Of a stretch of DNA of 54,762 bases, positions 18,454-53,038 are shown in pieces (the first letter of the stretch is position 1; each line of letters starts with the position of its first letter). Below the pieces are notes generated by a model. It saw only the letters and a program-made list of their open reading frames with translations. It did no database searches and was not told the origin of the DNA. The DNA comes from a bacterium (lineage in GTDB: Bacteria; UBA9089; JASEGY01). The stretch lies in assembly GCA_040753085.1 (NCBI GenBank), contig JBFMHI010000006.1:1-54762 (forward strand), given 5' to 3'. The translations under genes and the position numbers were made by a program.

Positions 18454-19434
18454 TCAAGATTTAAGAGACAATTCCTTCTTTAGTTCGCCTCTGGTAACGG
18501 TCGCTGTCCCCACTTTACCGACCACAATTCCGGCCGCATAATTGGCCAAAGTGGCTGCTTCCAACAAACCGGCGCCGGAGGCTAAGGCCAGCGTAAAGAC
18601 AGCGACTACTGTATCTCCGGCCCCGGTAACATCATAGACTTCTCTGGCTACGGTGGGGATATGAGTTACTTCCCCTTGCCGGGGAAAGAGGGACATTCCT
18701 TTTTCTCCCCTGGTGATCAAGACCGCCTCGCATTCCAAAAGGTTAAGAAGAAACCAACCGACTTCGATTAGGCTCTCTTCATCAGTAATAGGCTTGCCTG
18801 ATAGAAGACCGGCCTCGTGATGATTGGGGGTGAGCACAGAGATACGCTTATATGATTTCAAATGTCCTATCTTGGGATCGACCACCACGGGTCGATCAAA
18901 CTCTCTGGATAGAGCCACCAGCTTTTCAATAAGGGGTGGGATAATGACCCCCTTGCCATAGTCAGAAATAATAACCGCGTCTATGTCAGAGATAAGGCCG
19001 CCACAATAATCAAGTATGGTCTCCGTCAAGGCCGGGTCTATCTCTTTTCTGTTTTCCCGATCCACCCGAACCACCTGTTGTGAATGGGCAATGATTCTTG
19101 TTTTTTGTATAGTCGGCCGCTCCTGGACGGCCAAGATCCCCTCTGTGCCAATCTTCCTTTGCTTCAGGTCAGCCGTTAAGTCTTCACCTATTTTATCCTG
19201 GCCAATGACGCCGACCAGTTCTGCCTTCCCTTCCAGGGAGATAATATTGTTGGCCACATTGGCTGCCCCCCCCGGAAGGATGGTCTCATCGACTACCTCC
19301 ACCACCGGCACCGGCGCCTCAGGCGAGATTCGATTTACCCGACCCCAGACAAATTCATCCGCCATAATATCGCCCACCACCAACAGCCTTGAATTTTCAA
19401 ACCGGTCTATGATATTTAGGAGATTAGTCATCAT
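18454..19434 (-). CDS. rfaE1: D-glycero-beta-D-manno-heptose-7-phosphate kinase (RfaE1/HldE kinase domain)
   Basis: A 326-residue PfkB/ribokinase-family sugar kinase. VVGDIMADEFVWGRVNRISP and PVPVVEVV are characteristic of the heptose kinase; LPGGAANVANNI is the ribokinase GG motif, and DVTGAGDTVVAVF holds the catalytic Asp near residue 270. It phosphorylates heptose-7-phosphate at C1 for ADP-heptose synthesis, a core lipopolysaccharide sugar, supporting a diderm envelope. The second (adenylyltransferase) half of bifunctional HldE is absent. The ATG directly abuts a CGGATTT array, leaving no Shine-Dalgarno sequence; a second ATG follows at codon 2. Confidence 0.85.
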   Translation of the reverse strand: MMTNLLNIIDRFENSRLLVVGDIMADEFVWGRVNRISPEAPVPVVEVVDETILPGGAANVANNIISLEGKAELVGVIGQDKIGEDLTADLKQRKIGTEGILAVQERPTIQKTRIIAHSQQVVRVDRENRKEIDPALTETILDYCGGLISDIDAVIISDYGKGVIIPPLIEKLVALSREFDRPVVVDPKIGHLKSYKRISVLTPNHHEAGLLSGKPITDEESLIEVGWFLLNLLECEAVLITRGEKGMSLFPRQGEVTHIPTVAREVYDVTGAGDTVVAVFTLALASGAGLLEAATLANYAAGIVVGKVGTATVTRGELKKELSLKS

Positions 19435-19476
19435 CGGATTTCGGATTTCGGATTTCGGATTTCGGATTTCGGATTT
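19435..19476. repeat. Heptanucleotide array, CGGATTT (6 units)
   Basis: Six nearly perfect CGGATTT units end at the base before the heptose-kinase start codon (minus strand). The repeat therefore occupies the place of that gene's ribosome-binding site. Confidence 0.92.
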
Positions 19477-19483
19477 ATTTTTC

Positions 19484-19631
19484 GTAACCGTTCAGCACAT
19501 GATGCTGGATGCTCGATCCTCGATCCTCGATGCTCGATCTTCGATGCTGGTAAAGGATTCAGTATCCAGGATCGAGCATCCAGGATCGAGCATCCAGGAT
19601 CGAGGTTGTGCCTTAGTGGCTGAACGCTTAC
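19484..19631. mobile_element. Palindromic miniature element with 7-bp-repeat core
   Basis: The left end GTAACCGTTCAGCACATGAT is inverted on the right as GTGGCTGAACGCTTAC. The core is an array of 7-bp words (GATGCTC, GATCCTC, GATCTTC, GATGCTG) followed by its own inverted copy (ATCCAGG, ATCGAGC), so the transcript would fold into one long hairpin. No ORF. Confidence 0.8.
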
Positions 19632-19638
19632 AATTTTT

Positions 19639-20064
19639 CTAATCCGCAATCCGCAATCCGCAATCCGCAATGTAGACCGCCTGGGCCAGAGCCAATTGGG
19701 CGGTATGAGTGAGGGTAATCAGGATATGTCCCTGACCGGCCAGCTCTTTGGCCTTGCCTTCAAGATGAACCGCCGGTTTTCCGGTGTTACCCCTTCTTAT
19801 CTCAATATCCTTCCAGGGGCATCGAAGCCCCAGGGCCTTTATAACCGCCTCCTTGCCGGCGAACCTGGCCGCCAGATGCTCAGCCGGCCTGGCCCGGCTC
19901 AAGCAGTAATTTAGCTCCGCCGGGGTAAAGACCTTCTCCAGAAATCGCTGGCCCCATTTGGTTACGGCGCTCTCTATCCTTTCGACCTCAACCAGATCCA
20001 CTCCCAAACCTTTTAGTTCTGAGTTTCGCACCCACTTCGTGGGTACCCGGAGTTTCGAGTTCAT
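19639..20064 (-). CDS. acpS: Holo-[acyl-carrier-protein] synthase, extended by repeats at both ends
   Basis: The central ~115 residues are a normal AcpS, which transfers 4'-phosphopantetheine from CoA to acyl carrier protein. Visible motifs are GLGVDLVEVERIE (metal Asp), FTPAELNYC, HLAARFAGKEAVIKALG (catalytic stretch) and TLTHTAQLALAQAV. It is unusual at both ends. The first 18 residues (MNSKLRVPTKWVRNSELK) precede the normal N-terminus and are encoded by a palindromic repeat (20028-20049), and the last nine (ADCGLRIAD) by CCGCAAT-type 7-bp repeats. Its ATG overlaps the TonB-like gene's stop by four bases (ATGA), so translation is probably coupled, and the long start is likely real. Confidence 0.9.
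   Translation of the reverse strand: MNSKLRVPTKWVRNSELKGLGVDLVEVERIESAVTKWGQRFLEKVFTPAELNYCLSRARPAEHLAARFAGKEAVIKALGLRCPWKDIEIRRGNTGKPAVHLEGKAKELAGQGHILITLTHTAQLALAQAVYIADCGLRIAD
19644..19671. repeat. Heptanucleotide array CCGCAAT (4 units) inside the acpS 3' end
   Basis: Four CCGCAAT units lie within the acpS reading frame and encode its non-homologous C-terminal tail, including the region of the stop codon. Confidence 0.88.
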
Positions 20065-22923: not shown

Positions 22924-22982
22924 TTAATGTCACTCCTTCTCGATGCTCGATACTCGACACTAGATCCTTTGCCAGCATCCAG

Positions 22983-23064
22983 CCTCGAGCCTCGAGCCTC
23001 GAGCCTCGAGCCTCGAGCCTCGAGCCTCGAGCCTCGAGCCTCGAGCCTCGAGCATCGAGCATCG
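22983..23064. repeat. Heptanucleotide array, CCTCGAG (10 units plus variants)
   Basis: Ten consecutive CCTCGAG units are followed by CATCGAG variants. Each unit contains the palindrome CTCGAG, so the array can fold in many registers. Confidence 0.94.
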
Positions 23065-23179: not shown

Positions 23180-23489
23180 GTAACTACTCAGGTAGATAGG
23201 CTGAAGACTGAAGACCGAAGACTGAAGACTGAAGACTGAAGGCTGAAGGCTGAAGACTGAAGGCTGAAGACTGAAGGCTGAAGGCTGAAGACTGAAGGCT
23301 GAAGACTGAAGACTGAAGGCTGAAGGCTGAAGACTGAAGACTGAAGGCTGAAGGCTGAAGGCTGAAGACTGAAGGCTGAAGTTCAATCATCTACTCACCG
23401 CATTTGTCCCTAAAAGCCTTCAGTCTATTCCCCTGAGTAGCCCGTCCCTAAAAGCCTTCAGTCTTCAGCCTATCTGCCCGAATAGTTAC
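23180..23489. mobile_element. Palindromic element with 26-unit GRCTGAA array
   Basis: The left end GTAACTACTCAGGTAGATAG is inverted on the right as CTATCTGCCCGAATAGTTAC. Positions 23199-23380 hold exactly 26 units of 7 bp (GACTGAA or GGCTGAA, one GACCGAA). The rest contains two inverse words, AAGCCTTCAGTC and CAGTCTTCAGCC. No gene is seen between 23066 and 23803. Confidence 0.85.
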
Positions 23490-23619: not shown

Positions 23620-23780
23620 ATCGTTTCGGCCAATGGGGGATAGAGTCCACTGTCCACCCCGTCCACTGAGTCCACTCAGTCCACTGAGTCCACTCAGTCC
23701 ACTGAGTCCACTGAGTCCACCCAGTCCATCGTCCATCGCCGCCTATTAACCATCGACCGTCTTAGAGTAGCCGAAACGAT
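23620..23780. repeat. Repeat unit with 11-bp inverted ends and 9-bp GTCCACTGA array
   Basis: ATCGTTTCGGC (23620-23630) is inverted as GCCGAAACGAT (23770-23780). Between them lie seven 9-bp units (GTCCACTGA or GTCCACTCA) from 23661, then two 7-bp GTCCATC units. It occupies the region upstream of the DUF89/cobalamin cluster, where a promoter or B12 riboswitch might be expected; I see no B12-box. Confidence 0.78.
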
Positions 23781-31526: not shown

Positions 31527-34500
31527 CTATTTTACTACAATCATCTTTCTGGTAGCCTCGAAGGAACCGGCCTTGAGCTGGTAGAAGTAGATACCGCTGG
31601 CTACTTCCTGACCGCTGTTATCTTTGCCATCCCAGTAAGCAGCCCGGTCTTTAGAGATATAGCTTCCGGCTGTAAGCACACCTAAGTCCAGGCTCCGAAC
31701 CAACCGGCCAGAGAGGTCAAAGATGTTGACCGTTACCCCGGCCTCCTGGCTCAGACTGAAGGGCAGGAAGGTCTCCGGATTCATCGGGTTAGGATAGTTC
31801 TGACCCAGCATGGTCTTAGTCGGTACCATCGCCCCCATACCCAGGCTGATATAATCCGCCAGGACTTGCTTCAGTTCGCTGTTGCCATCTCCCAGGGCTT
31901 CGTACATATCCCGGAAGGCCTCTAAATAGGCGGCGTAATCTATTCTTTCTTCTGAAGCCGCCGCTATCGGCGCCGCCGTGATTACGGTATGGCTCTGGTG
32001 CCAGTTGAGACCCACCGAGAGCACGTCTTTGGCATCCACTACGCCGTCACCATTGGCATCGGCATAAGTGGCCGCTACCGTAGACCAGCCGATCATTGAC
32101 TGGCCAATCCACTGGGTGGTGGCGCTGGCTCTCGGTTTGCCCGACACCTTCCAATACATGCCTATCGGCAGGATGTCCTTGGCATCCACATAACCATCGT
32201 TGTTGGTATCACCAGGCCAGATAACCAGGTTGTAGATGTTGCCTGCAATGACCCTGATCTGGGCCGAGGTCATCTTCACGCCTACGGGTTCATTGGCGCT
32301 GTTTCTGACTTCTACATCAGAGAAGCTCAGGTCGATCAGGTCGCCCACCTGACAGGCCGGCTCTTCAGCCAGCTTGAAGGTTATCTTCACCAGGGCCTCG
32401 CTCTCATCATAACCTGTCACGCCTGTGCCGTGTATCCCTTTCTTGCGGCTGATACCGATCTCGATCTTGCCGGCCGCCTCGTCTACCTTGGCCACATCTT
32501 CGTGATTCTCAATCAAGACCAGCTTGTTCGGATCAGAATCGAGGTATTTGCCAGGCGTAGCCGACACGTAATCCAGGATGTCTGACCGGGTGAAGTTCAG
32601 GGTAAAGGCCACACCGTAAATATCTTTGCCCTTATGGAAGTCATCGCCCACATATACGTTAAGCTCAAAGGTCTGGCCAGGACGCTGCTCATAGACCTCC
32701 TTACCCAGTCTAAGCTTCACTTGGGTAGTAGAGGAGACCACGTGGATAGTGACTGCATCAGGATGCGAGGTCCTCCCGCTGGGATCAATCACCACCAGTT
32801 GGAAGGTATAATCACCTACATAGTTGGGCACAAAGGTCGGATGCTCCACCTGGTCAAGGATAACCGTCTCCGGACCGGCTGTCTGGGTCCAGACATAGGC
32901 CAGGACATCGTTCTTATCCAGGTCATAGCTCTTGGAGCCGTCCAGGATGACCGTGGTGTTGGCCTCCACCGTCATGTCGGCTCCGGCCTCGGCTATCGGC
33001 GTATGTCCCTCTTTGCTCCAGGGCTTGTAGTCAACATAGTCGCTTACCCTATCTCCCAGACCATTGAGGTTGTAATAAGGTCTGGTCTTGGATTTATCCG
33101 CCGGACCAGTGGCGTCTCCCCACCAGTTATATTTGGCGTTGATCAGCACATCTTCATCCGAGTTGTAAACGGCGTAGTTGGCATTACTCAGGAACTCATT
33201 CATATCTTCTTCACTCCCGCCGATAAGAGGATTGGAACCGGTGCTGGTGTAAATGCCGTATTCGGCGTTTTCCGTGAAGACTGATTGGGTAATAGCCGGC
33301 GAGGCGCCCAGGGTGCATTTTACGCCAATGCCGTTCCAGATGAAATTGGCCCGCTTGATACTCGGCGCATTAGCCGCACAGTCAACCCCGACCGCCGCAT
33401 ACTTAATCACTACCTCCTCCAGCTCGCCGCTGGTGGTAGCGTCGTTAAAGGCGATGCCGCCCCAGTCACCGATCGTGGCTTCCATATAATCCTCATCAGC
33501 GTTAGTGTCTCCGCCATAGTTGTCATCCCGGTAAGAGGTGAAGATGATCTGCCCCTGGCCGGTGGTGCCGACCGCCCTGATCCTAGCATTATCATTCAGG
33601 TAAATAGAACCCCTCACCTTGATGGTAACACCGGGGTCAATGGCCCAGAAGGCGCCGTTGGTTACGGTCAGTCCATCAGGGATATAGAAAGGAGCATCTG
33701 TTTCATGCCAGGTAACCGACGGCGTCCCCTGAGCGCTCGGGGCTAAAGCCGGGCCGGCTTCCACTACTTCAGCTTCAACCGCCGGCCTAGTAATATCGCC
33801 GCAGACCTTAATGGCATCATACTGATTGCCGAAGATCTCGTTGTCCGTAATCAGATAGGCATTATTGGCCGTAATGCCGATGGCATAGTTGCGATTGTAG
33901 TTAATCAGGTTATGCCTGATAATCGGCTCGGCTTCCTCCCAACAGAAGGTGGCAATAGTCCCGGCTATGTGGCCCGTCGGATCATCGGTGTAGGTGAAGT
34001 CATCGTCCGGGGAGTAGGAATCATTGTAAGTCAGATGGTTCCACTCGATCAGCGGATCAGAGTTATTTCTCACCGCAATAGCCCGGTAGGTGTTGTAAGC
34101 GATCTTGTTGCTGGTGATGGTCGGTGAGGCATTGTGCAGCTCTACCCCATCCTCAGAGTAGAGGATGATAGACCGGTTGATGAGGGAATCATCTCGGGAT
34201 TGATCCCTAAAGAGGATGCCCTGCCAATCGCCGTCATCGGCTACCCTGGCCTCGGATTGACCATCGCAGTTGGTGTTTCCGCCAAAGTCATCGTCAAAAT
34301 AGGAAGTGAAGACGATGAAGTTTTCGCTCCAGTCGGAGGGGCGGATGGTCCGCTCAAAGGGCGGGCAGCAGTTCTGGCCCGGCTCAATGATGTCAAAGGC
34401 ATGCAGGTCGCCGCCCGGATCGCCGTCGGCAATCAGTCTGCCTCTGATCTCCAGACCGGCCCCTTCGGACTTGGGCTTGGTCTCATCGAACTTGATGACG

Positions 34501-37500
34501 TTACCAGGCATAATGGTCAGGGTGACGTCTTCCTCTACGATAACCCGCTGGACAAAATAGGGCACTAAGTCATTATAGTTCCAACTGGTGCCAGCCACGG
34601 CGTAGTTGGCATACCAGACCGTATCCGTGCAGTGGTTGGTGGCATCGATCCAGATGGCATTATGGTTGTTGCCCTTGATCAGGTTGTCCTTGATGATGTA
34701 ACCGCCCACACAATCTCCCAGTCGGTTCTGTCCTTTGATGATGGCCCAGCCGTCATTGTCCTGGATGAGGTTGTCGGTGATGGTCTCAGAGGCGGTGGCG
34801 GTGGAGTAGATACCGCCGCCGGCTCCATCCACATCAGTCGGCCTAACTCCATTGTCGTGTATATCACAGTTGGTCACCACTAAGTCGGTGTGGTTGCCCA
34901 CGTAGTAGTTGCCCTCATTGAGGATGCCCCAACGGCCGTTGCGAGCAAATTCGCAGTTGTCAATGGTGATGCGGCCGTCATCCAGCTTGAAGTCGGCCCC
35001 GTCCAACCGGTTGTCGGTGAATTCTGAATTAGTCAAGGTCGGATTCATGGCCGGCTCAGGATCATTGGTCATATCGGCCGTCTTGTCACCGCTGTAAAGT
35101 ATGCCGTAGGCAGCCGAGTTAGTGCTCCTGATATGGTCGATGACCACATCACTGCCGTAGACCTCGATGTTGCCCCGGTGATACTCGCCCAGGCCGTCAG
35201 CATACCAGCCGCCGTAGCGGATATCCGCATAGCTTATGATGGAGCCCTCCGAGGTCTCTTCAAATTTGATCCGCTGCCAATCACCGGCCTGCGGGTAATA
35301 GACCTGGCCGTCTGGTCTGGTCCAGGTGCTGAAGGTGATCCGCAGCTCGGGGATGGTGCCTTCCGGAGACGGCGCCCGCCCGGCCGCTACTAAGGTTCCC
35401 TGGATGACCAGCTCAGGCGGCTGGTTAGGATCGGTCAGAGTGGAGAATGGTCGGAAGAGAACTTCTACGCCCGGCTCCACCGTCAGGGTCACGCCCGGCT
35501 GAACCTGAACCAGGTCCTCAATGATGTAAGGTGAATTGGAGAGAGACCAGACCGTATCTTCTTGATAGATGCGGTCATCATAAGGCGGCACATCGTCCAG
35601 GATGCGGTTGACATAGGTGGCTGACTTTTTGACCGACCAGGCGCCGGTGAAGGCCGACTGGTTGCCGCCGCAGTCAACGGCCGCTACTCGCCAGTAGTAG
35701 ACCTCACCCATCAGCATGGCATACTCATTGGGCAGGGTGTATTCTACCGTGGAATAACCTTGATCCAGAACCTTTACGTTTACCTCAGGCGAGGAGAAAT
35801 CAGAATCACGGTCCATCTGGAAGATATAGTAAGTCGCATCCGGCGTGGCCGTCCACTCGAAGATGGGGGTCGAATCCGTCACCGGACTGGGCGTCATATC
35901 ACCCACTACCTTACTTACCTTAGCCGGGTGGATCAGGGTCGGCGTGGCCGGCGATTTGAGGTCGACCTCAAATCGATTGGGGGTGCTCCAGTTGGTGGAA
36001 TTAGTCGCCTGATCAAAGGCCTTGACCCGCCAGTAGTAGATACCTTCAGGGAAGGCGTTCAAGCCGGCCAGGGCCCCCTCAAACCGGCCGCCAAATTGGC
36101 CATTGTAGGCCTGATAGTCGGCTTCGGTGATGTTGAATCGGCCGTTGCCATCCTGATCAATCGGCCAGCGGCTGTTGGCGATATTCTGAATGCTGGGAAC
36201 CCCGTTGGTCCGGAATTCCATCAGCGGCTCAAAGGGTAGCTCGCTGATGTTTATCTCCAGAGGATCAGTGAACTTGATGTCGTCGCTTACCTGCAGGGTG
36301 TAGACGATGGGGGCGGAAGGATCGCCCATTGGATCCCAGTCAAAGATAGGGGTGGCATCATTGACGCACTGACCGTCCGCCGGTGTGACCAGTCTCACTG
36401 ACTTGCAGCTCACAAAACAGTCGGCAATCCGAGTATCAATATGAATCTCCCAGACATCGGTCGACCAGCCGGTCTTGCAGCAGCGGTTGCCGGCCTCATC
36501 CACACCACCGACTCTCCAATAGTAAGTGCCGTCTCTTAGGGCCACGGTCGGCACATAGCTGGAGACCTTGGTCCACTCATCTACCTCGGGTGAGGCAAAG
36601 TCGATGTTGTTGTCAATCTGAATATTATAGGTGATTTTGTCTATGCTCGGCCCGGTGCCCTCATCCTCGTAGGCTGACCCCTCATCCGACCAGTCAAAGA
36701 AGGGGGTGTCATCGTTGGTATAGGTGCCGTCATCCGGTGAAACCAGGCTCGGACATGAATCTACGTGCGGATCGATCCTGATGGCCCGGATCTCTGACCA
36801 GGTGGACTCATTCTCGGCACAGTCAATGGCCGTCACCCGCCAGTAGAAGGTCTTGCCGGCCCCGATACTAGGCAGAATAGTTGGCGTAAAGGTCATACGG
36901 CCATCTAAGACCTGGAACATCTCCGGATGATAGACATCGTGAGGGTCTCTCGGATCATTGGAATATTCAATGGTCTCATCAAAGATGTCGCCATTATTGG
37001 AATGATCCGCTGTGGTCAGGTCATTATCGCTCTCGATCTGGATGAGGTAGTAAACCTTATCGCAGTAGTCTGAGTTAAGGAAGTTGCCTGACAGCTCTGA
37101 AGAGTGGTAAGTCTTGGAATCAACCACCTGCTCCCAGGTCATCGTGGGCGTAATATCATTGGTAATGTAGAAATCTTCTGGTGAGATCAGATTAGGGGCG
37201 TCCGGGGCCGTGGTGTCAATGGTGAATCTCCGGTAAGGACTGGTATGGCTCCACTCGGAGATGTTGCCGGCACAGTCCATCGCCCGCACTCGCCAATAAT
37301 AGGTTCCTTCCGGCAGGGCCGGCGTGACCGTCATTTGACTGCCGTGGATATAACCGGTCGTGCTGCCGTCTAAGGGGTTATCTCCGCCTACCAATTGTGA
37401 CTCAAAGTCGTTTATGTCCAGAATAGGTGAAGAGAAATCAGCATCATCATCGATCTGGAGCTGATACCTCAGGTCGTAAGCCTCTGGCTCATCCCAGTCT

Positions 37501-40500
37501 AAGGTGGGGGTGTCATCGTTGAAGATGATGGCGTCATCCGGTGAGGAATAGTTGGGCATATCCGGCGGCGTCAGGTCCACGGTAAAGACCATCATATTCC
37601 CGCCGTTACTTCTGTTGCCGGCATCGTCAACGGCAATGACCCGCCAGTAGTAGTGCCCCTCATTCAGCTCATAAGCCGGTGGCAGGGTATACTGGGACTC
37701 GGTCAGACCAGAGACAGAGACGTCCGGGTCGATAAAGTCCGGGTCCCCGGCATCTTTGGCCTTGACCAACTCGAAGATGTAAGATATGGTCCGCTGCTGG
37801 GTATCGGTATCCTCCCAATAGAAGGTCGGCCTGGTTCGGCTGAAGGGCCGGCTGAGTGGACCGCCGGTGCCTGAAAAGACGCTGGGTGAAATATCCGGCT
37901 CCACCGCATATCCCTCGTCCCGGTAGCTGACACAGCCAAAAGGCGATAAGAGAACCGGATCGGCTGGGGCCTCCATTTCCGGATTGAAGCTCCAGACCTG
38001 GCTGGCGCACTGGTTGCCGGCCTTATCATAGGCAGTTACCCGCCAGTAATAGATTACCCGGTTATCCAGGGCCTCTGAATCAGCCGTTTGATAGCTGGAG
38101 ACCGGCGGCGTCCCGGTGTTCCACTGATCAATAACCAGGGGAGCCGTAAAGCTTGATTCGGTATCAACCTGAATATTGTAGCTGATAATATTGGGGTCGG
38201 TCACATCAGCCCAGTCAAATAAGGGAGTCGTATCGGGCAGGGCGATCCCGTTGGATGGAGAGAGCAGCTCAGGTGTGCAGGGCGGGATGGTGTCAATGAT
38301 AAAGACCTGCGTCTTCCATGGACTGATGTTGCCGGCACAGTCCCTGGCCCGCACCCGCCACATATAGTTGCCATCGGCTAAGGCTGCCGTATAAGTCGGC
38401 TGGGTCAGCTCAGTCACGTCAACTATGGGTGAGCTCCAGCCTGTCTCCATGGGCGCAATCTGCAGGTCATAGCGAAGCTCCTCGCCGTGACTGATCACCC
38501 AGGCGTAGGTCTCAGGTGGATTGCCGTCATCGGTACTGGTAAGATATGTAGCCGCCGTAGCGCTCCAATCTACCCAGTGCGTCTGAGAAGTGGTATCCCC
38601 CTCATTCCAGATAAAGGTCGGGGTCGGATCGGCCACATAGGCGCCGTTATCCGGAGTGTCAGACAGGTCCTGGGGAGTGGTCGGCGCTTTGGTGTCCACG
38701 ATAAAGGCAAAGGAGTCAGACCAGGTATTGCCCGCATCATCGGTTACCTGCAGCTCCCACCAATAAAAATCACCGTCGGTATCCGAATCCTCCAGACAGA
38801 CCGTGGTGATAAAGCTATGCTGGGTCCCGCCGCCACCGACGTCGACCCACCCATTAGCATCACTACTAGGAAGATTAACCACATTCGTGCTATCATAGAC
38901 GCCCAGATTTCTATTGACGATTCGAACTTGATAGGTCACGGCTGGCGGCTCATCCAGACCATTGGGCCTGGCCCCGTAAGGCGGCAGGTCAACCCACTCC
39001 AGAGTCGGGGTGCAGTCATTGATATGGAACTGCCGGCTGCAGAACTCTGAGTCAGCCCCAGGATAGATCAGTCTGGCCACGGGCGCCGTGGTATCCACCG
39101 TAAAGTAACAGATTTCACTCCAGTTGCCTACCACCTCGTTACAGGAAGGATCCAGGGCCCTCACCCGCCAGAACCAGATGCCGTCCGGTAAGACGGCCCC
39201 GGTCCAGGCAGTCGTCCGGTCAGAAAGCCAAGCTACCTGATTGCCGTTAGCATCCTGACCATTAGAAAACAAAAAGCTGCTAACCTCTGAAGGCGCCGCC
39301 GCAGCATCATTACCATTTCTGATCCAGAGGTCGTACTCCACATCTTCCGAATCAGCAATCGAGAAAGACTCGTCATGATCAAGCTGGATTTCATACCACA
39401 GGTCACTGGGCTGACTCCCTGAAGGATCAGCCACCTCGGTCCAGGTGAAGGTAGGCGTACCCGTATTGATCCGGTCTCCTCCATTAGTGCCGGTGGTGGT
39501 GCACTGGCCCGGTGACTGGAGGATAGGCGCCTCAGGCGGGATACAGTCTTCCAAGTCTACGATGACCCGCCACTTGACACTCCAGTTAGTGGAGTCACTC
39601 CAGGAATGGGCGTTGACCGACATAACCCGCCACCAGTAGGTGCCTTCGGGTAGACGACCGGCGTTGAGAGCCTGGAAGAGATCAGTGGACTGTTGATCAT
39701 AGACTAAGCCCGGATAGGTGTCCCCAATGGTAAAGCACGTTATGGTGCCGGGTATCCAGGCCTGAATGAGGAGATTATTGGCGTTTAGGGCGGCTGTATC
39801 TACCCCCGACCCTTCTCTCTCATTTTCATCCTCAAAGTTATCATTATTGAACCAGCCGAACTGGAAGATGTAAGAGTCACTGGCATCGTCTCCGCCACCT
39901 GTCTGAGTAATGCCGGGTCCCCCAGCGGCTAAATCCAGCGCATTCAGCACACCCTCATAAGGAATGCCCACCCTGGCATCCCAGCAGAAGGTAGGCTGAG
40001 GTGAATTGGTAGTGAGGCCGTCGATAAGAGACCGCAGGTCCACCGGCCGGATAGTGAAGGACCAGGTGGTGCTCCAGTTGGTGTAAGGCCTCCCAGAACC
40101 ACCCGCCCCCTCATCAGAATAACCCATCACCCGCCAGTAGTAAGTTCCGTTCTTGAGGTTAAAGGAGCCGGTGTCAACGGCATAGAACCCCTGGGTGGGA
40201 TCAAGTCCCCAGATGGCCTGACTGTCGGCGGTAGTGACAATCTTCGGCCATTGTTCCGTGGAGCCATCCGGATTGAATTCTGTCCGCTCCGCAAAACCTG
40301 GATCTTTATCTATCCAAATGGCCCAACTGTCAATCACATCATTGGCGCTGCTGTCGGACAGGTTCTCGGCCGCGCCGAATACTAGGTCAGGCGTGGCGCT
40401 GTAAACATCAAACCCATTTAAAGGATACTGCAGCACCGGTGGGACTATGTCAAACCAGCCCAGGTTGCTCTTGGTGTCCTCATCCACAATGACCCGCCAG

Positions 40501-40880
40501 TAGTACCTGGTGATTTCACCTTCCGGTACACAGTCCAGGGCCAGGCTGTCGGGTATGTTAAAGGAATGTGTTACCCCCGGACCTCCAAAACCACCACCAG
40601 ACACATTTAAACCATAATCCCCTATGCTGTCAAAAAGGAGATTAACCTCGAATTCTAACGGATAAAGAAAGTCATTCCGCTCATCGACCTGGACAATAAA
40701 CTGTTGAGCCGTATCAGGCCCGTTCCAGTACCAGGTCAAAGATGGGGTAGCGTCCCAGGTGTCAATCCCGTTAATGGGACTGGTCAAGGACAGGGCATAC
40801 CCCGTGCCCACCATGGCTGTCCCCAACACAGCCAGGGTGGCTAACACTACCATCACCATTTTTAGTACATCTTTCTTCAT
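31527..40880 (-). CDS. Giant secreted protein: ~13 FnIII/Ig-like repeats, beta-helix, PKD, cohesin-like, dockerin, FlgD-like end
   Basis: A 3117-residue exported protein (signal peptide MKKDVLKMVMVVLATLAVLG). Residues ~35-1740 are about thirteen FnIII/Ig-like repeats, each with a YYWRV (variants WWRV, FWRV, MWRV) strand followed by a D-x-AGN-x-S turn. Residues ~1755-2600 are two runs of right-handed beta-helix (SPYIIEDLVQVQPGVTL), ~2630-2715 a PKD domain (PIAEAGADMTVEANTTVILD), ~2718-2880 a cohesin-like domain, ~2885-2950 two dockerin calcium loops (DTNNDGYVDAKDI, DANGDGVVDAKDV), and from ~3020 a FlgD-like terminal module (QNYPNPMNPETFLPF ... RKMIVVK). GGGAGG lies before the ATG. The domain order from beta-helix to C-terminus equals that of the 1423-residue protein. 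Likely a surface fibre or adhesin; no enzymatic domain seen. Confidence 0.87.
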   Translation of the reverse strand: MKKDVLKMVMVVLATLAVLGTAMVGTGYALSLTSPINGIDTWDATPSLTWYWNGPDTAQQFIVQVDERNDFLYPLEFEVNLLFDSIGDYGLNVSGGGFGGPGVTHSFNIPDSLALDCVPEGEITRYYWRVIVDEDTKSNLGWFDIVPPVLQYPLNGFDVYSATPDLVFGAAENLSDSSANDVIDSWAIWIDKDPGFAERTEFNPDGSTEQWPKIVTTADSQAIWGLDPTQGFYAVDTGSFNLKNGTYYWRVMGYSDEGAGGSGRPYTNWSTTWSFTIRPVDLRSLIDGLTTNSPQPTFCWDARVGIPYEGVLNALDLAAGGPGITQTGGGDDASDSYIFQFGWFNNDNFEDENEREGSGVDTAALNANNLLIQAWIPGTITCFTIGDTYPGLVYDQQSTDLFQALNAGRLPEGTYWWRVMSVNAHSWSDSTNWSVKWRVIVDLEDCIPPEAPILQSPGQCTTTGTNGGDRINTGTPTFTWTEVADPSGSQPSDLWYEIQLDHDESFSIADSEDVEYDLWIRNGNDAAAAPSEVSSFLFSNGQDANGNQVAWLSDRTTAWTGAVLPDGIWFWRVRALDPSCNEVVGNWSEICYFTVDTTAPVARLIYPGADSEFCSRQFHINDCTPTLEWVDLPPYGARPNGLDEPPAVTYQVRIVNRNLGVYDSTNVVNLPSSDANGWVDVGGGGTQHSFITTVCLEDSDTDGDFYWWELQVTDDAGNTWSDSFAFIVDTKAPTTPQDLSDTPDNGAYVADPTPTFIWNEGDTTSQTHWVDWSATAATYLTSTDDGNPPETYAWVISHGEELRYDLQIAPMETGWSSPIVDVTELTQPTYTAALADGNYMWRVRARDCAGNISPWKTQVFIIDTIPPCTPELLSPSNGIALPDTTPLFDWADVTDPNIISYNIQVDTESSFTAPLVIDQWNTGTPPVSSYQTADSEALDNRVIYYWRVTAYDKAGNQCASQVWSFNPEMEAPADPVLLSPFGCVSYRDEGYAVEPDISPSVFSGTGGPLSRPFSRTRPTFYWEDTDTQQRTISYIFELVKAKDAGDPDFIDPDVSVSGLTESQYTLPPAYELNEGHYYWRVIAVDDAGNRSNGGNMMVFTVDLTPPDMPNYSSPDDAIIFNDDTPTLDWDEPEAYDLRYQLQIDDDADFSSPILDINDFESQLVGGDNPLDGSTTGYIHGSQMTVTPALPEGTYYWRVRAMDCAGNISEWSHTSPYRRFTIDTTAPDAPNLISPEDFYITNDITPTMTWEQVVDSKTYHSSELSGNFLNSDYCDKVYYLIQIESDNDLTTADHSNNGDIFDETIEYSNDPRDPHDVYHPEMFQVLDGRMTFTPTILPSIGAGKTFYWRVTAIDCAENESTWSEIRAIRIDPHVDSCPSLVSPDDGTYTNDDTPFFDWSDEGSAYEDEGTGPSIDKITYNIQIDNNIDFASPEVDEWTKVSSYVPTVALRDGTYYWRVGGVDEAGNRCCKTGWSTDVWEIHIDTRIADCFVSCKSVRLVTPADGQCVNDATPIFDWDPMGDPSAPIVYTLQVSDDIKFTDPLEINISELPFEPLMEFRTNGVPSIQNIANSRWPIDQDGNGRFNITEADYQAYNGQFGGRFEGALAGLNAFPEGIYYWRVKAFDQATNSTNWSTPNRFEVDLKSPATPTLIHPAKVSKVVGDMTPSPVTDSTPIFEWTATPDATYYIFQMDRDSDFSSPEVNVKVLDQGYSTVEYTLPNEYAMLMGEVYYWRVAAVDCGGNQSAFTGAWSVKKSATYVNRILDDVPPYDDRIYQEDTVWSLSNSPYIIEDLVQVQPGVTLTVEPGVEVLFRPFSTLTDPNQPPELVIQGTLVAAGRAPSPEGTIPELRITFSTWTRPDGQVYYPQAGDWQRIKFEETSEGSIISYADIRYGGWYADGLGEYHRGNIEVYGSDVVIDHIRSTNSAAYGILYSGDKTADMTNDPEPAMNPTLTNSEFTDNRLDGADFKLDDGRITIDNCEFARNGRWGILNEGNYYVGNHTDLVVTNCDIHDNGVRPTDVDGAGGGIYSTATASETITDNLIQDNDGWAIIKGQNRLGDCVGGYIIKDNLIKGNNHNAIWIDATNHCTDTVWYANYAVAGTSWNYNDLVPYFVQRVIVEEDVTLTIMPGNVIKFDETKPKSEGAGLEIRGRLIADGDPGGDLHAFDIIEPGQNCCPPFERTIRPSDWSENFIVFTSYFDDDFGGNTNCDGQSEARVADDGDWQGILFRDQSRDDSLINRSIILYSEDGVELHNASPTITSNKIAYNTYRAIAVRNNSDPLIEWNHLTYNDSYSPDDDFTYTDDPTGHIAGTIATFCWEEAEPIIRHNLINYNRNYAIGITANNAYLITDNEIFGNQYDAIKVCGDITRPAVEAEVVEAGPALAPSAQGTPSVTWHETDAPFYIPDGLTVTNGAFWAIDPGVTIKVRGSIYLNDNARIRAVGTTGQGQIIFTSYRDDNYGGDTNADEDYMEATIGDWGGIAFNDATTSGELEEVVIKYAAVGVDCAANAPSIKRANFIWNGIGVKCTLGASPAITQSVFTENAEYGIYTSTGSNPLIGGSEEDMNEFLSNANYAVYNSDEDVLINAKYNWWGDATGPADKSKTRPYYNLNGLGDRVSDYVDYKPWSKEGHTPIAEAGADMTVEANTTVILDGSKSYDLDKNDVLAYVWTQTAGPETVILDQVEHPTFVPNYVGDYTFQLVVIDPSGRTSHPDAVTIHVVSSTTQVKLRLGKEVYEQRPGQTFELNVYVGDDFHKGKDIYGVAFTLNFTRSDILDYVSATPGKYLDSDPNKLVLIENHEDVAKVDEAAGKIEIGISRKKGIHGTGVTGYDESEALVKITFKLAEEPACQVGDLIDLSFSDVEVRNSANEPVGVKMTSAQIRVIAGNIYNLVIWPGDTNNDGYVDAKDILPIGMYWKVSGKPRASATTQWIGQSMIGWSTVAATYADANGDGVVDAKDVLSVGLNWHQSHTVITAAPIAAASEERIDYAAYLEAFRDMYEALGDGNSELKQVLADYISLGMGAMVPTKTMLGQNYPNPMNPETFLPFSLSQEAGVTVNIFDLSGRLVRSLDLGVLTAGSYISKDRAAYWDGKDNSGQEVASGIYFYQLKAGSFEATRKMIVVK

Positions 40881-49881: not shown

Positions 49882-50127
49882 ATGAAACGTTTCATATTAG
49901 GGATAGGTCTTTTTTTCCTGGTGGGTGTGTTGATTAGCTGCACGCCTAAGCCTGAAGAAACTGCCGCCCCTGAAGAACAGGCCATAGAGGAGACTACTCC
50001 GGCCGTAGAGGAGGCCCCGGCCGTAGAGGAGGCCCCGGCCGTAGAGGAAGCCCCGGCAGGGGAAGTGGAACATGCCCCTGAGGGTGGTGAGATGGGAGCC
50101 CAACCAACAGAAAAAGCCCCCGAATAA
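49882..50127 (+). CDS. Small repeat-containing lipoprotein
   Basis: An 81-residue predicted lipoprotein: signal segment MKRFILGIGLFFLVGVLISC with lipobox LISC (lipid-modified Cys20), then a highly acidic, Pro/Ala/Glu-rich tail containing three VEEAPA units encoded by an 18-bp repeat. There is no recognisable domain; such tails are usually extended spacers. AAAGGAGGTGAAACG gives a strong ribosome site. Confidence 0.8.
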   Translation: MKRFILGIGLFFLVGVLISCTPKPEETAAPEEQAIEETTPAVEEAPAVEEAPAVEEAPAGEVEHAPEGGEMGAQPTEKAPE

Positions 50128-51478: not shown

Positions 51479-53038
51479 ATGGCATTAAATGGGATTAACC
51501 CTACTAACTATGAAATATCCCCCTTCCTAGGCAGGGAAGCATTTCTAGAAAATATCCCGCAGCCTTATGCTTCTCCCAGAGGAGAAGAAATAATCGACCG
51601 CTGGGAAAAAGGTCCTAAAGAGCCGACAGAGAAAGGCACCTATCATCCTTCCGATTTCAAACCGCCGTTGCCAGGTGAAGAGACTGAAGCAAACACTTCT
51701 GCTATCCGGGATACCCACGAAGTGGGTGCGCAATCCGCAATCCCGGGTACCCACGAAGTGGGTGCGCAATCCGCAATCGAAGAACTGCCAGGCGATGATC
51801 TTGAGCCTGAATTAGCAGGAAAAAAACCTGGGGTAGAGACCGATTCGCAATCCGCCATCCCGGGTACCCACGAAGTGGGTGCGCAATCCGCAATCGAAGA
51901 ACTGCCGGGCGATGATTTTGAGCCTGAATTGGCAGGAAGAGAACCTGAGGTAGAGACCGATTCACAATCCGCAATCCGCAATCCGCAATCCGCAATCGAA
52001 GAACTGCCGGGCGATGATTTTGAGCCTGAATTAGCAGGGAAAGAACCTGGGGTAGAGACCAATTCACCATCCGCCATCCCGGGTACCCACGAAGTGGGTG
52101 CGCAATCCGCAATCCGCAATCCGCAATCCGCAATTGGAAATGAGACTGAAGCCACGGCTGAAGAATCAGAATCCGCTTCAGAAGAAGCTGAAACTGAGGA
52201 GGAAGAAGAGGAGGAGAAAGAGAAAAAGGTAGGGACAACATCTGAGCAAGACTTATCCGAGGAAGAGCAAGAAGAAGTTCAGGAGTTAAAGCAAAGAGAC
52301 CGGGAAGTCCTCCAGCATGAGCAAGCCCATATAGCGGCAGGCGGACAGTATATCCGCGGGGGGGCAAAATATGAATATGAAACGGGGCCGGATAATAAAC
52401 GCTATGCGGTGGGGGGCGAGGTTTCAATCGACACCTCTTCTGAATCCACGCCTGAGGCCACCGCCCGAAAGGCCCAGGTAATCCGGCGGGCGGCTTTAGC
52501 CCCAAAAGACCCTTCATCCCAGGACAGAAGTGTAGCCGCTCAGGCTTCCAAAATGGAAATGCAGGCCCGGAGGGAGATGGCCGAAGAGGCGCGAGAGGAA
52601 GTTAAAGAGGCAGGAGAAGAGAGTAAATCAGAAGAGAGCAAGAATACTCAGAAGGTAGATGATAACCACCAGATCGAACAGAAAGATGATAATGAAAAGA
52701 TTGCTCAGCCGGAAACAGACAATAAAAAAACCTCTAACTCCAGAGAGGATGAAGAATCTTCGAATACCAGGACATCAGCCGGAGTTGAAAGCCTTGTAAA
52801 CGAAATAGTAAGCAAAAAAGAAGACGGTTCTTTATTGCAAATAGGAGTGGAGGAGAACCCCCTAACTGAAATAACAAACAACGAAAAAGAAGATGGGCCT
52901 CTGTCTCAAATAACGGAGGAGAAAGAGTCTGATAATTCCTCAGAAACAAAGGACGCCAATAATGGGTACGGCGGCTTTGCCCCTTATGCCCGGCTGACTC
53001 GACCAGAAGTAGGTGGCAACATTAACCTTTACGTATAA
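51479..53038 (+). CDS. SprA-related putative metalloprotease-like protein with repeat-derived insert
   Basis: A 519-residue hydrophilic protein without signal peptide. Residues ~265-385 match the SprA-related family: LKQRDREVLQHEQAHIAAGG contains HEQAH, an HExxH-type zinc motif, followed by YIRGGAKYEYETGPD, YAVGGEVSIDTS and KAQVIRRAALAPKDPS. The N-terminal third is a three-fold imperfect repeat (EELPGDDxEPELAG) joined by segments SAIPGTHEVGAQSAI and SAIRNPQSAI. These segments are translations of the palindromic GGGTACCCACGAAGTGGGTG repeat (four copies: 51709, 51745, 51862, 52081) and of 7-bp CCGCAAT repeats that are intergenic elsewhere. The C-terminus is acidic and low-complexity. Protease activity is not proven for the family. 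Confidence 0.75.
   Translation: MALNGINPTNYEISPFLGREAFLENIPQPYASPRGEEIIDRWEKGPKEPTEKGTYHPSDFKPPLPGEETEANTSAIRDTHEVGAQSAIPGTHEVGAQSAIEELPGDDLEPELAGKKPGVETDSQSAIPGTHEVGAQSAIEELPGDDFEPELAGREPEVETDSQSAIRNPQSAIEELPGDDFEPELAGKEPGVETNSPSAIPGTHEVGAQSAIRNPQSAIGNETEATAEESESASEEAETEEEEEEEKEKKVGTTSEQDLSEEEQEEVQELKQRDREVLQHEQAHIAAGGQYIRGGAKYEYETGPDNKRYAVGGEVSIDTSSESTPEATARKAQVIRRAALAPKDPSSQDRSVAAQASKMEMQARREMAEEAREEVKEAGEESKSEESKNTQKVDDNHQIEQKDDNEKIAQPETDNKKTSNSREDEESSNTRTSAGVESLVNEIVSKKEDGSLLQIGVEENPLTEITNNEKEDGPLSQITEEKESDNSSETKDANNGYGGFAPYARLTRPEVGGNINLYV

Follow-up and report, generated by a model that had tools for sequence, protein, structure and literature searches.

To our knowledge, palindromes that form part of coding sequence are documented in few lineages. 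In cyanobacteria, a short tandemly repeated repetitive (STRR) sequence is known to have inserted into the RNase P RNA. Rickettsia palindromic elements (RPEs) are palindromic repeats that lie in frame in unrelated conserved protein genes and are tolerated by the host protein (PMC2229807, PMC10969869). They measure 105-146 bp, bear a terminal inverted repeat of 12 bp and have also been found in RNase P RNA and tmRNA (PMC2229807). In PARCELs (palindromic amphipathic repeat coding elements), the repeat is coding and its DNA shows dyad symmetry (PMC2996958). The GGGNATC repeats of Xanthomonas and Nostoc are over-represented in non-coding and under-represented in coding regions (PMC4692102).

Here we analyzed a 54,762-nucleotide stretch of DNA (the window), contig 6 of a 3.05-Mb MAG, together with a congener, the JASEGY01 MAG "bacterium isolate Yes70-08". 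Two modules, the CGGGTACCCACGAAGTGGGTGC hairpin in its sequence context and 7-bp units of the form ATCCG(A/C)(A/C), are dispersed in these two congeneric species. Both lie in frame inside many functional genes, with interchange of hairpin and heptamer. The phenomenon is genome-wide and is not confined to the SprA-related gene of the window, from which the analysis started (Table 1).

Table 1. Positions of repeats, host frames and RNase P RNA genes (window coordinates unless a locus is named)
Feature	Position	Strand	Evidence
SprA-related CDS, 519 aa, host of repeats	51479..53038	+	Pfam match
PF12118 domain with HEQAH motif; 3' of the repeats, itself repeat-free	52160..52609	+	
Hairpin copy 1, one mismatch (GGATACC), peptide DTHEVGA	51709..51730	+	
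Hairpin copy 2, exact, peptide GTHEVGA	51745..51766	+	
Hairpin copy 3, exact, peptide GTHEVGA	51862..51883	+	
Hairpin copy 4, exact, peptide GTHEVGA	52081..52102	+	
CCGCAAT array inside hairpin-free module, peptide SAIRNPQSAI	51965..51997	+	perfect run
CCGCAAT array adjoining hairpin copy 4, peptide QSAIRNPQSAI	52101..52134	+	perfect run
Intragenic tandem module M2, 117 bp, hairpin present	51791..51907	+	
Intragenic tandem module M3, 102 bp, without hairpin	51908..52009	+	
Intragenic tandem module M4, hairpin present, heptamer array extended	52010..52145	+	
acpS frame (PF01648); hairpin in N-terminal extension, heptamers as C-terminal tail	19639..20064	-	
Fifth hairpin copy of the window, acpS frame 1 (RVPTKWV)	20027..20048	-	
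CCGCAAT array, antisense to acpS, at acpS 3' end, reads IADCGLRIAD*	19641..19671	+	
TCGGATT (= AATCCGA) array, intergenic, pfkB-type gene to acpS	19434..19476	.	
RNase P RNA genes of the two species	L259:1501-2012; L260:349-939		RF00010

The 519-aa frame of the SprA-related gene matched PF12118 (SprA-related) at residues 228-377 (E=5.5e-27, Pfam search). Upstream of this domain, the hairpin GGGTACCCACGAAGTGGGTGCG occurred four times, three times exactly and once with a single mismatch, and all hairpins and heptamers of the gene shared one frame, with (G/D)THEVGAQ and SAIRNPQ as products. With up to three mismatches allowed, the hairpin was matched five times in the window and never in 100 shuffled sequences, and the CCGCAATCCGCAAT pattern gave nine matches against zero expected from the shuffled control. 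Tandem units of 117 and 102 bp that enclose the hairpins were detected within the gene by TRF. Because these larger units contain hairpins and unit M3 is without one, the four copies are partly products of tandem duplication and not four independent insertions. M3 was exactly 15 bp shorter than M2, the hairpin being missing, and the SprA-related gene itself thus carries filled and empty versions of one site. A small putative lipoprotein at 49882-50127 contained an 18-bp coding tandem repeat (PAVEEA), whose length, unlike that of the heptamers, is a multiple of the frame.

The acpS frame takes both of its ends from repeats, MNSKLRVPTKWVRN... at one end and ...IADCGLRIAD* at the other, and its start codon shares the ATGA at 20064-20061 with the stop codon of the frame before it. 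The initial annotation had described four in-frame copies of a 22-bp palindrome in the SprA-related gene, runs of CCGCAAT read as SAIRNPQ beside GTHEVGAQ, and the same words between genes elsewhere. The common 519-aa frame was confirmed for hairpins and runs alike; one of the four copies has a mismatch, and the palindrome is imperfect, with an 8-bp stem, a GAA loop and one T.G pair. An intergenic position holds for the AATCCGA run and fails for the fifth hairpin and the third CCGCAAT run, which lie at the ends of acpS.

At 19501-19604, oppositely oriented heptamer arrays (GATGCTC / ATCCAGGATCGAGC) lie between genes and could form a long hairpin; inverted pairs of neighboring arrays were commoner in this genome (33 of 95) than random words would give (17 of 95). 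Long arrays of other heptamers, AGCCTCG x12 and CTGAAGA x26 (22981-23064 and 23201-23381), the second word containing a stop codon, were adjoined by a 9/18-bp array at 23644-23728. A 3117-aa frame at 31527-40880 showed beta-helix, Ig-like, PKD, dockerin and C-terminal secretion-tail matches.

The census of the hairpin in both genomes was based on a pattern search (up to three mismatches) and on the DNA fetched around every copy, so that the sampled sequence is that surrounding the copies; genes were called with our own hexamer model after masking of the elements. We found 88 copies in this genome and 30 in the congener, and the reversed (backward-read) pattern, used as a control, had no match in the census. 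The 88 copies comprised 64 in sense orientation within a gene, 13 antisense, 9 intergenic and 2 partial ones across a gene edge; the corresponding numbers in the congener were 21, 4, 3 and 2. Since 77/88 copies of this genome were genic, against a coding fraction of 0.835 in the sampled DNA, genes are not avoided by the hairpin. The proposal of the initial annotation that intergenic repeats had become coding was supported in its core, DNA repeats having become coding sequence, and wrong, for the hairpin, in calling them intergenic. Genic copies were biased toward the sense strand (p=3e-9 in this genome and 9e-4 in the congener). Among the 64 sense copies, the frame giving GTHEVGA predominated (41), followed by GYPRSGC (14) and RVPTKWV (9), and all six strand/frame states were represented among the copies. 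The hairpin was present in 52 host genes of this genome and 22 of the congener.

Perfect arrays of period 7 numbered 74 in the 637 kb sampled from this genome, as against 0-6 for each of the other periods from 4 to 12. Heptamer arrays as a whole were 44 intergenic and 28 genic in this genome and 26 intergenic and 39 genic in the congener, and hairpin copies were far more often genic than hairpin-free arrays (Fisher p=2e-7 and 0.01, respectively). Hairpin-free arrays in genes were also sense-biased, 13:5 in this genome and 19:4 in the congener. We therefore rejected an RNA-level cause of the bias; as heptamers without a hairpin show the same preference, tolerance of the product would be the simpler reading.

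With up to three mismatches, 16/17 other genomes of the phylum had no match, and the remaining one (G013) had four copies with 2-3 mismatches. Among the genomes tested, the hairpin within this heptamer flanking context was not found outside the two congeneric ones. The exact 22-mer was present in MAGs of Syntrophorhabdus, Tectomicrobia, Rokuibacteriota, Planctomycetota, Bdellovibrio and Desantisbacteria. Because these distant 22-mers have no heptamer flanks and lie among different surrounding repeats, we treat them as independent hairpins, and horizontal spread across phyla was rejected. In the Syntrophorhabdus MAG, four exact copies belonged to a tandem repeat of 93 bp whose flanks are unrelated.

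Alignment of the copies showed conservation beyond the core, reaching about 13 bp to the left and about 11 bp to the right, in the form AATCCG(CA)ATCCC-GGGTACCCACGAAGTGGGTGCG-(CA)ATCCG..AT; hairpin and conserved flanks together make a unit of about 46 bp. The words on the left and right flanks shared identical 5-mers in 44/88 copies, where 15 were expected and 0/10000 shuffles reached as high a number, and 84/118 copies had 7-bp periodicity on at least one side, compared with about 5% of random places. The matching flank words and the periodicity beside the copies suggest insertion of the hairpin into pre-existing heptamer arrays. The main coding words CCGCAAT and CCGAAAT contain no stop codon on either strand, and reading of the hairpin revealed no stop in any of six frames. 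As both modules are stop-free in all six frames, every orientation would be translatable and the repeats could be tolerated in coding DNA. The two lengths, 22 bp for the hairpin and 7 bp for the heptamer, are both 1 modulo 3.

Pfam matches identified hosts of diverse function, including leucyl-tRNA synthetase (LeuRS, two copies), DapF, TatD, an HhH-GPD DNA repair protein, an OppD-type ATPase, an M16 peptidase, a heptosyltransferase, a DinG-like helicase and a GH3 enzyme. In a histidine kinase, the insert falls inside the HATPase domain; the TrpE-like host was named from its sequence and not from a family search. Over the alignable parts of the 17 gene pairs tested between this genome and the congener, pN/pS was 0.14-0.33, and in these pairs the host genes stay open and appear to be under purifying selection. 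LeuRS could be aligned to PDB 1h3n over nearly its whole length, with the insert as an alignment gap before VFTTRPDT. For N-terminal copies, a Shine-Dalgarno-like motif preceded the upstream start in 16/26 cases and a later start in 2/26. From the open frames and the selection, we infer that the inserts should be translated as short extra peptides.

Comparison of orthologues revealed several states of the same sites. At the editing-domain site of LeuRS, this genome had heptamer-like sequence with a hairpin, the congener an array without a hairpin, and three outgroups neither heptamers nor hairpin; DinG and OppD followed the same pattern of presence and absence, with outgroups free of the insert. 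The heptosyltransferase had a hairpin in this genome and heptamers in the congener. The TrpE-like pair had the hairpin in the congener and four heptamers in this genome, with a difference of 15 bp, so that this difference between hairpin and no hairpin occurred in two independent cases, here and between M2 and M3 of the SprA-related gene. At the L178/L172 site, an antisense hairpin in this genome had no counterpart insert in the congener, and the GH3 and other pairs also differed in their inserts between the two species. For the SprA-related gene, the orthologue of the congener was free of the hairpin and carried a single heptamer run (SEIRNPKSEI) at the equivalent position, and two more distant homologues of the same phylum were without both repeats, a result of the orthologue comparison proposed by the initial annotation that favors insertion. 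At four further loci, no frame was recognized, and the DNA there was without hairpin and heptamers. The congener usually carries heptamers and no hairpin at matching sites, and the outgroup orthologues amenable to comparison are free of inserts. Two enzymes had heptamers in reverse and then forward orientation, the GH3 gene (L163, L197; GLGIGDWGLR...NPQSAIRNPQS) and the enzyme of L172 and L178:11420-13864 (FRISDFGFR...NPQS), and both inserts were present or different between the species.

The repeats extend to a structural RNA. The RNase P RNA genes of this genome and the congener matched RF00010 over the full model, with lengths of 512 and 591 bp. In both species, the largest excess lay in one apical loop with heptamer arrays facing each other, the facing words being CAGTAGT/CTACTGT in this genome and GAAGTGG/CTTCCTA in the congener.

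It is probable, in our view, that translatable repeats invaded coding DNA in the manner of RPEs and specifically in this lineage, with heptamers first, the hairpin later, and neutral or selfish spread. Heptamer arrays would have entered genes first, via slippage or ectopic copying; we infer this order, and loss of hairpins from older arrays would yield the same pattern. The hairpin would then have been gained and lost within existing arrays, spreading in the manner of a small selfish element or through recombination of one array with another. Since both lengths leave the same remainder, exchange of hairpin for heptamer would keep the reading frame, and gain or loss of units would keep it only in threes. 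Selection on the host protein would then leave copies that are mostly sense and encode hydrophilic linker peptides (SAIPGTHEVGAQSAIRNPQ) where the protein tolerates them, and we expect the peptides to have no useful function. In the SprA-related gene, the array would have lengthened an acidic segment before the conserved domain and would then have been multiplied by tandem duplication. A two-module, frame-neutral system, with a mobile hairpin living mainly in genes, essential ones among them, ongoing turnover, linkers and possibly phase-variable frameshifts, is conceivable and held only tentatively.

The reach of conservation into both flanks could also mean that the unit of about 46 bp is itself a true mobile element, non-autonomous and moved in trans as supposed for RPEs and MITEs, and the dispersal of near-identical copies, including the antisense L178/L172 copy facing an insert-free site in the congener, fits this reading. 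We nevertheless find it doubtful. The flank words vary by locus yet agree between left and right, which is better explained by insertion into arrays; the other species has heptamers at several matching sites, and a clean empty site is rare. Furthermore, the search for Y1 transposases (PF01797) returned none in this genome and one in the congener, and no mobilizing enzyme was identified; REP/RAYT mobilization was rejected because this genome has no such transposase.

Action of the hairpins on the mRNA, REP- or RNase III-like, with coding copies as by-products, would account for the 26/102 genic copies of both genomes within 25 codons of a start and for the greater predicted stability of the sense RNA hairpin (-12.8 vs -8.0 kcal/mol for the antisense). 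It is unlikely, given that most copies (75) are interior to genes and that heptamers alone are equally sense-biased. Moreover, pair counts over the copies showed almost no compensatory base-pair change, and maintenance of the structure through such change was rejected. The prevalence of the sense orientation and of the GTHEVGA frame indicates that the product matters, as would be expected if selected linkers or protein repeats had come first and the DNA similarity were secondary to protein constraint. Such an origin is nonetheless highly improbable: this DNA is found in every one of the six frame/strand states, between genes and in unrelated proteins, heptamer arrays interrupt RNase P RNA, and orthologues without the repeats exist. 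The two MAGs are fragmented, into 250 and about 1050 contigs, but an assembly or binning artefact is scarcely credible for repeats that two separate genomes have at matching orthologous sites, each species with sequence of its own, in frames that are open and with conserved sequence on both sides of the inserts.

If the invasion of coding DNA by translatable repeats is the correct reading, dozens of genes in a free-living lineage (groundwater appears to be the source of the congener) would carry translated or transcribed repeat inserts, among them the genes for an aminoacyl-tRNA synthetase and RNase P RNA. The two species and the outgroups display filled, heptamer-only and empty states, and this allows tests of how selfish or mutational DNA turns into protein sequence, which sites of a protein tolerate it, and how repeats that are not multiples of three keep the frame. 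For annotation, SAIRNPQ or GTHEVGAQ peptides that recur in this group should be taken as DNA repeats and not as protein domains.

Among known systems, REP/RAYT elements and MITEs share with the present hairpins their short length, dispersal and many copies; unlike REP/RAYT, the copies here are mostly genic rather than extragenic, and this genome has no REP-type transposase. A PARCEL is an amphipathic domain of 25 residues, repeated in tandem in ORFs of unassigned function, whereas the segments described here are short and lie in diverse housekeeping genes; the GTHEVGA and SAIRNPQ peptides are spaced by 12, 34 or 39 residues with no 25-residue unit, and they are therefore not PARCELs. Tandem 7-mers throughout the genome, with period 7 dominant here, recall cyanobacterial STRRs and the GGGNATC repeats of Xanthomonas and Nostoc; in contrast to the Xanthomonas/Nostoc repeats, the present arrays also pass through the coding sequence of many enzymes and include a hairpin module. 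RPEs differ in size and terminal repeat from the 22-bp core, 8-bp stem and roughly 46-bp unit found here, and the present hairpin typically lies among direct repeats of 7 bp that are coding too, with its copies predominantly genic. The palindromic elements of Wolbachia and Methanocaldococcus jannaschii are close systems alongside RPEs. The comparison with RPEs, already drawn in the initial annotation, is nevertheless apt: in both systems, a palindrome lies in frame in several unrelated genes, and insert-free orthologues exist, here in the outgroups for LeuRS, DinG and OppD and at the L178/L172 site.
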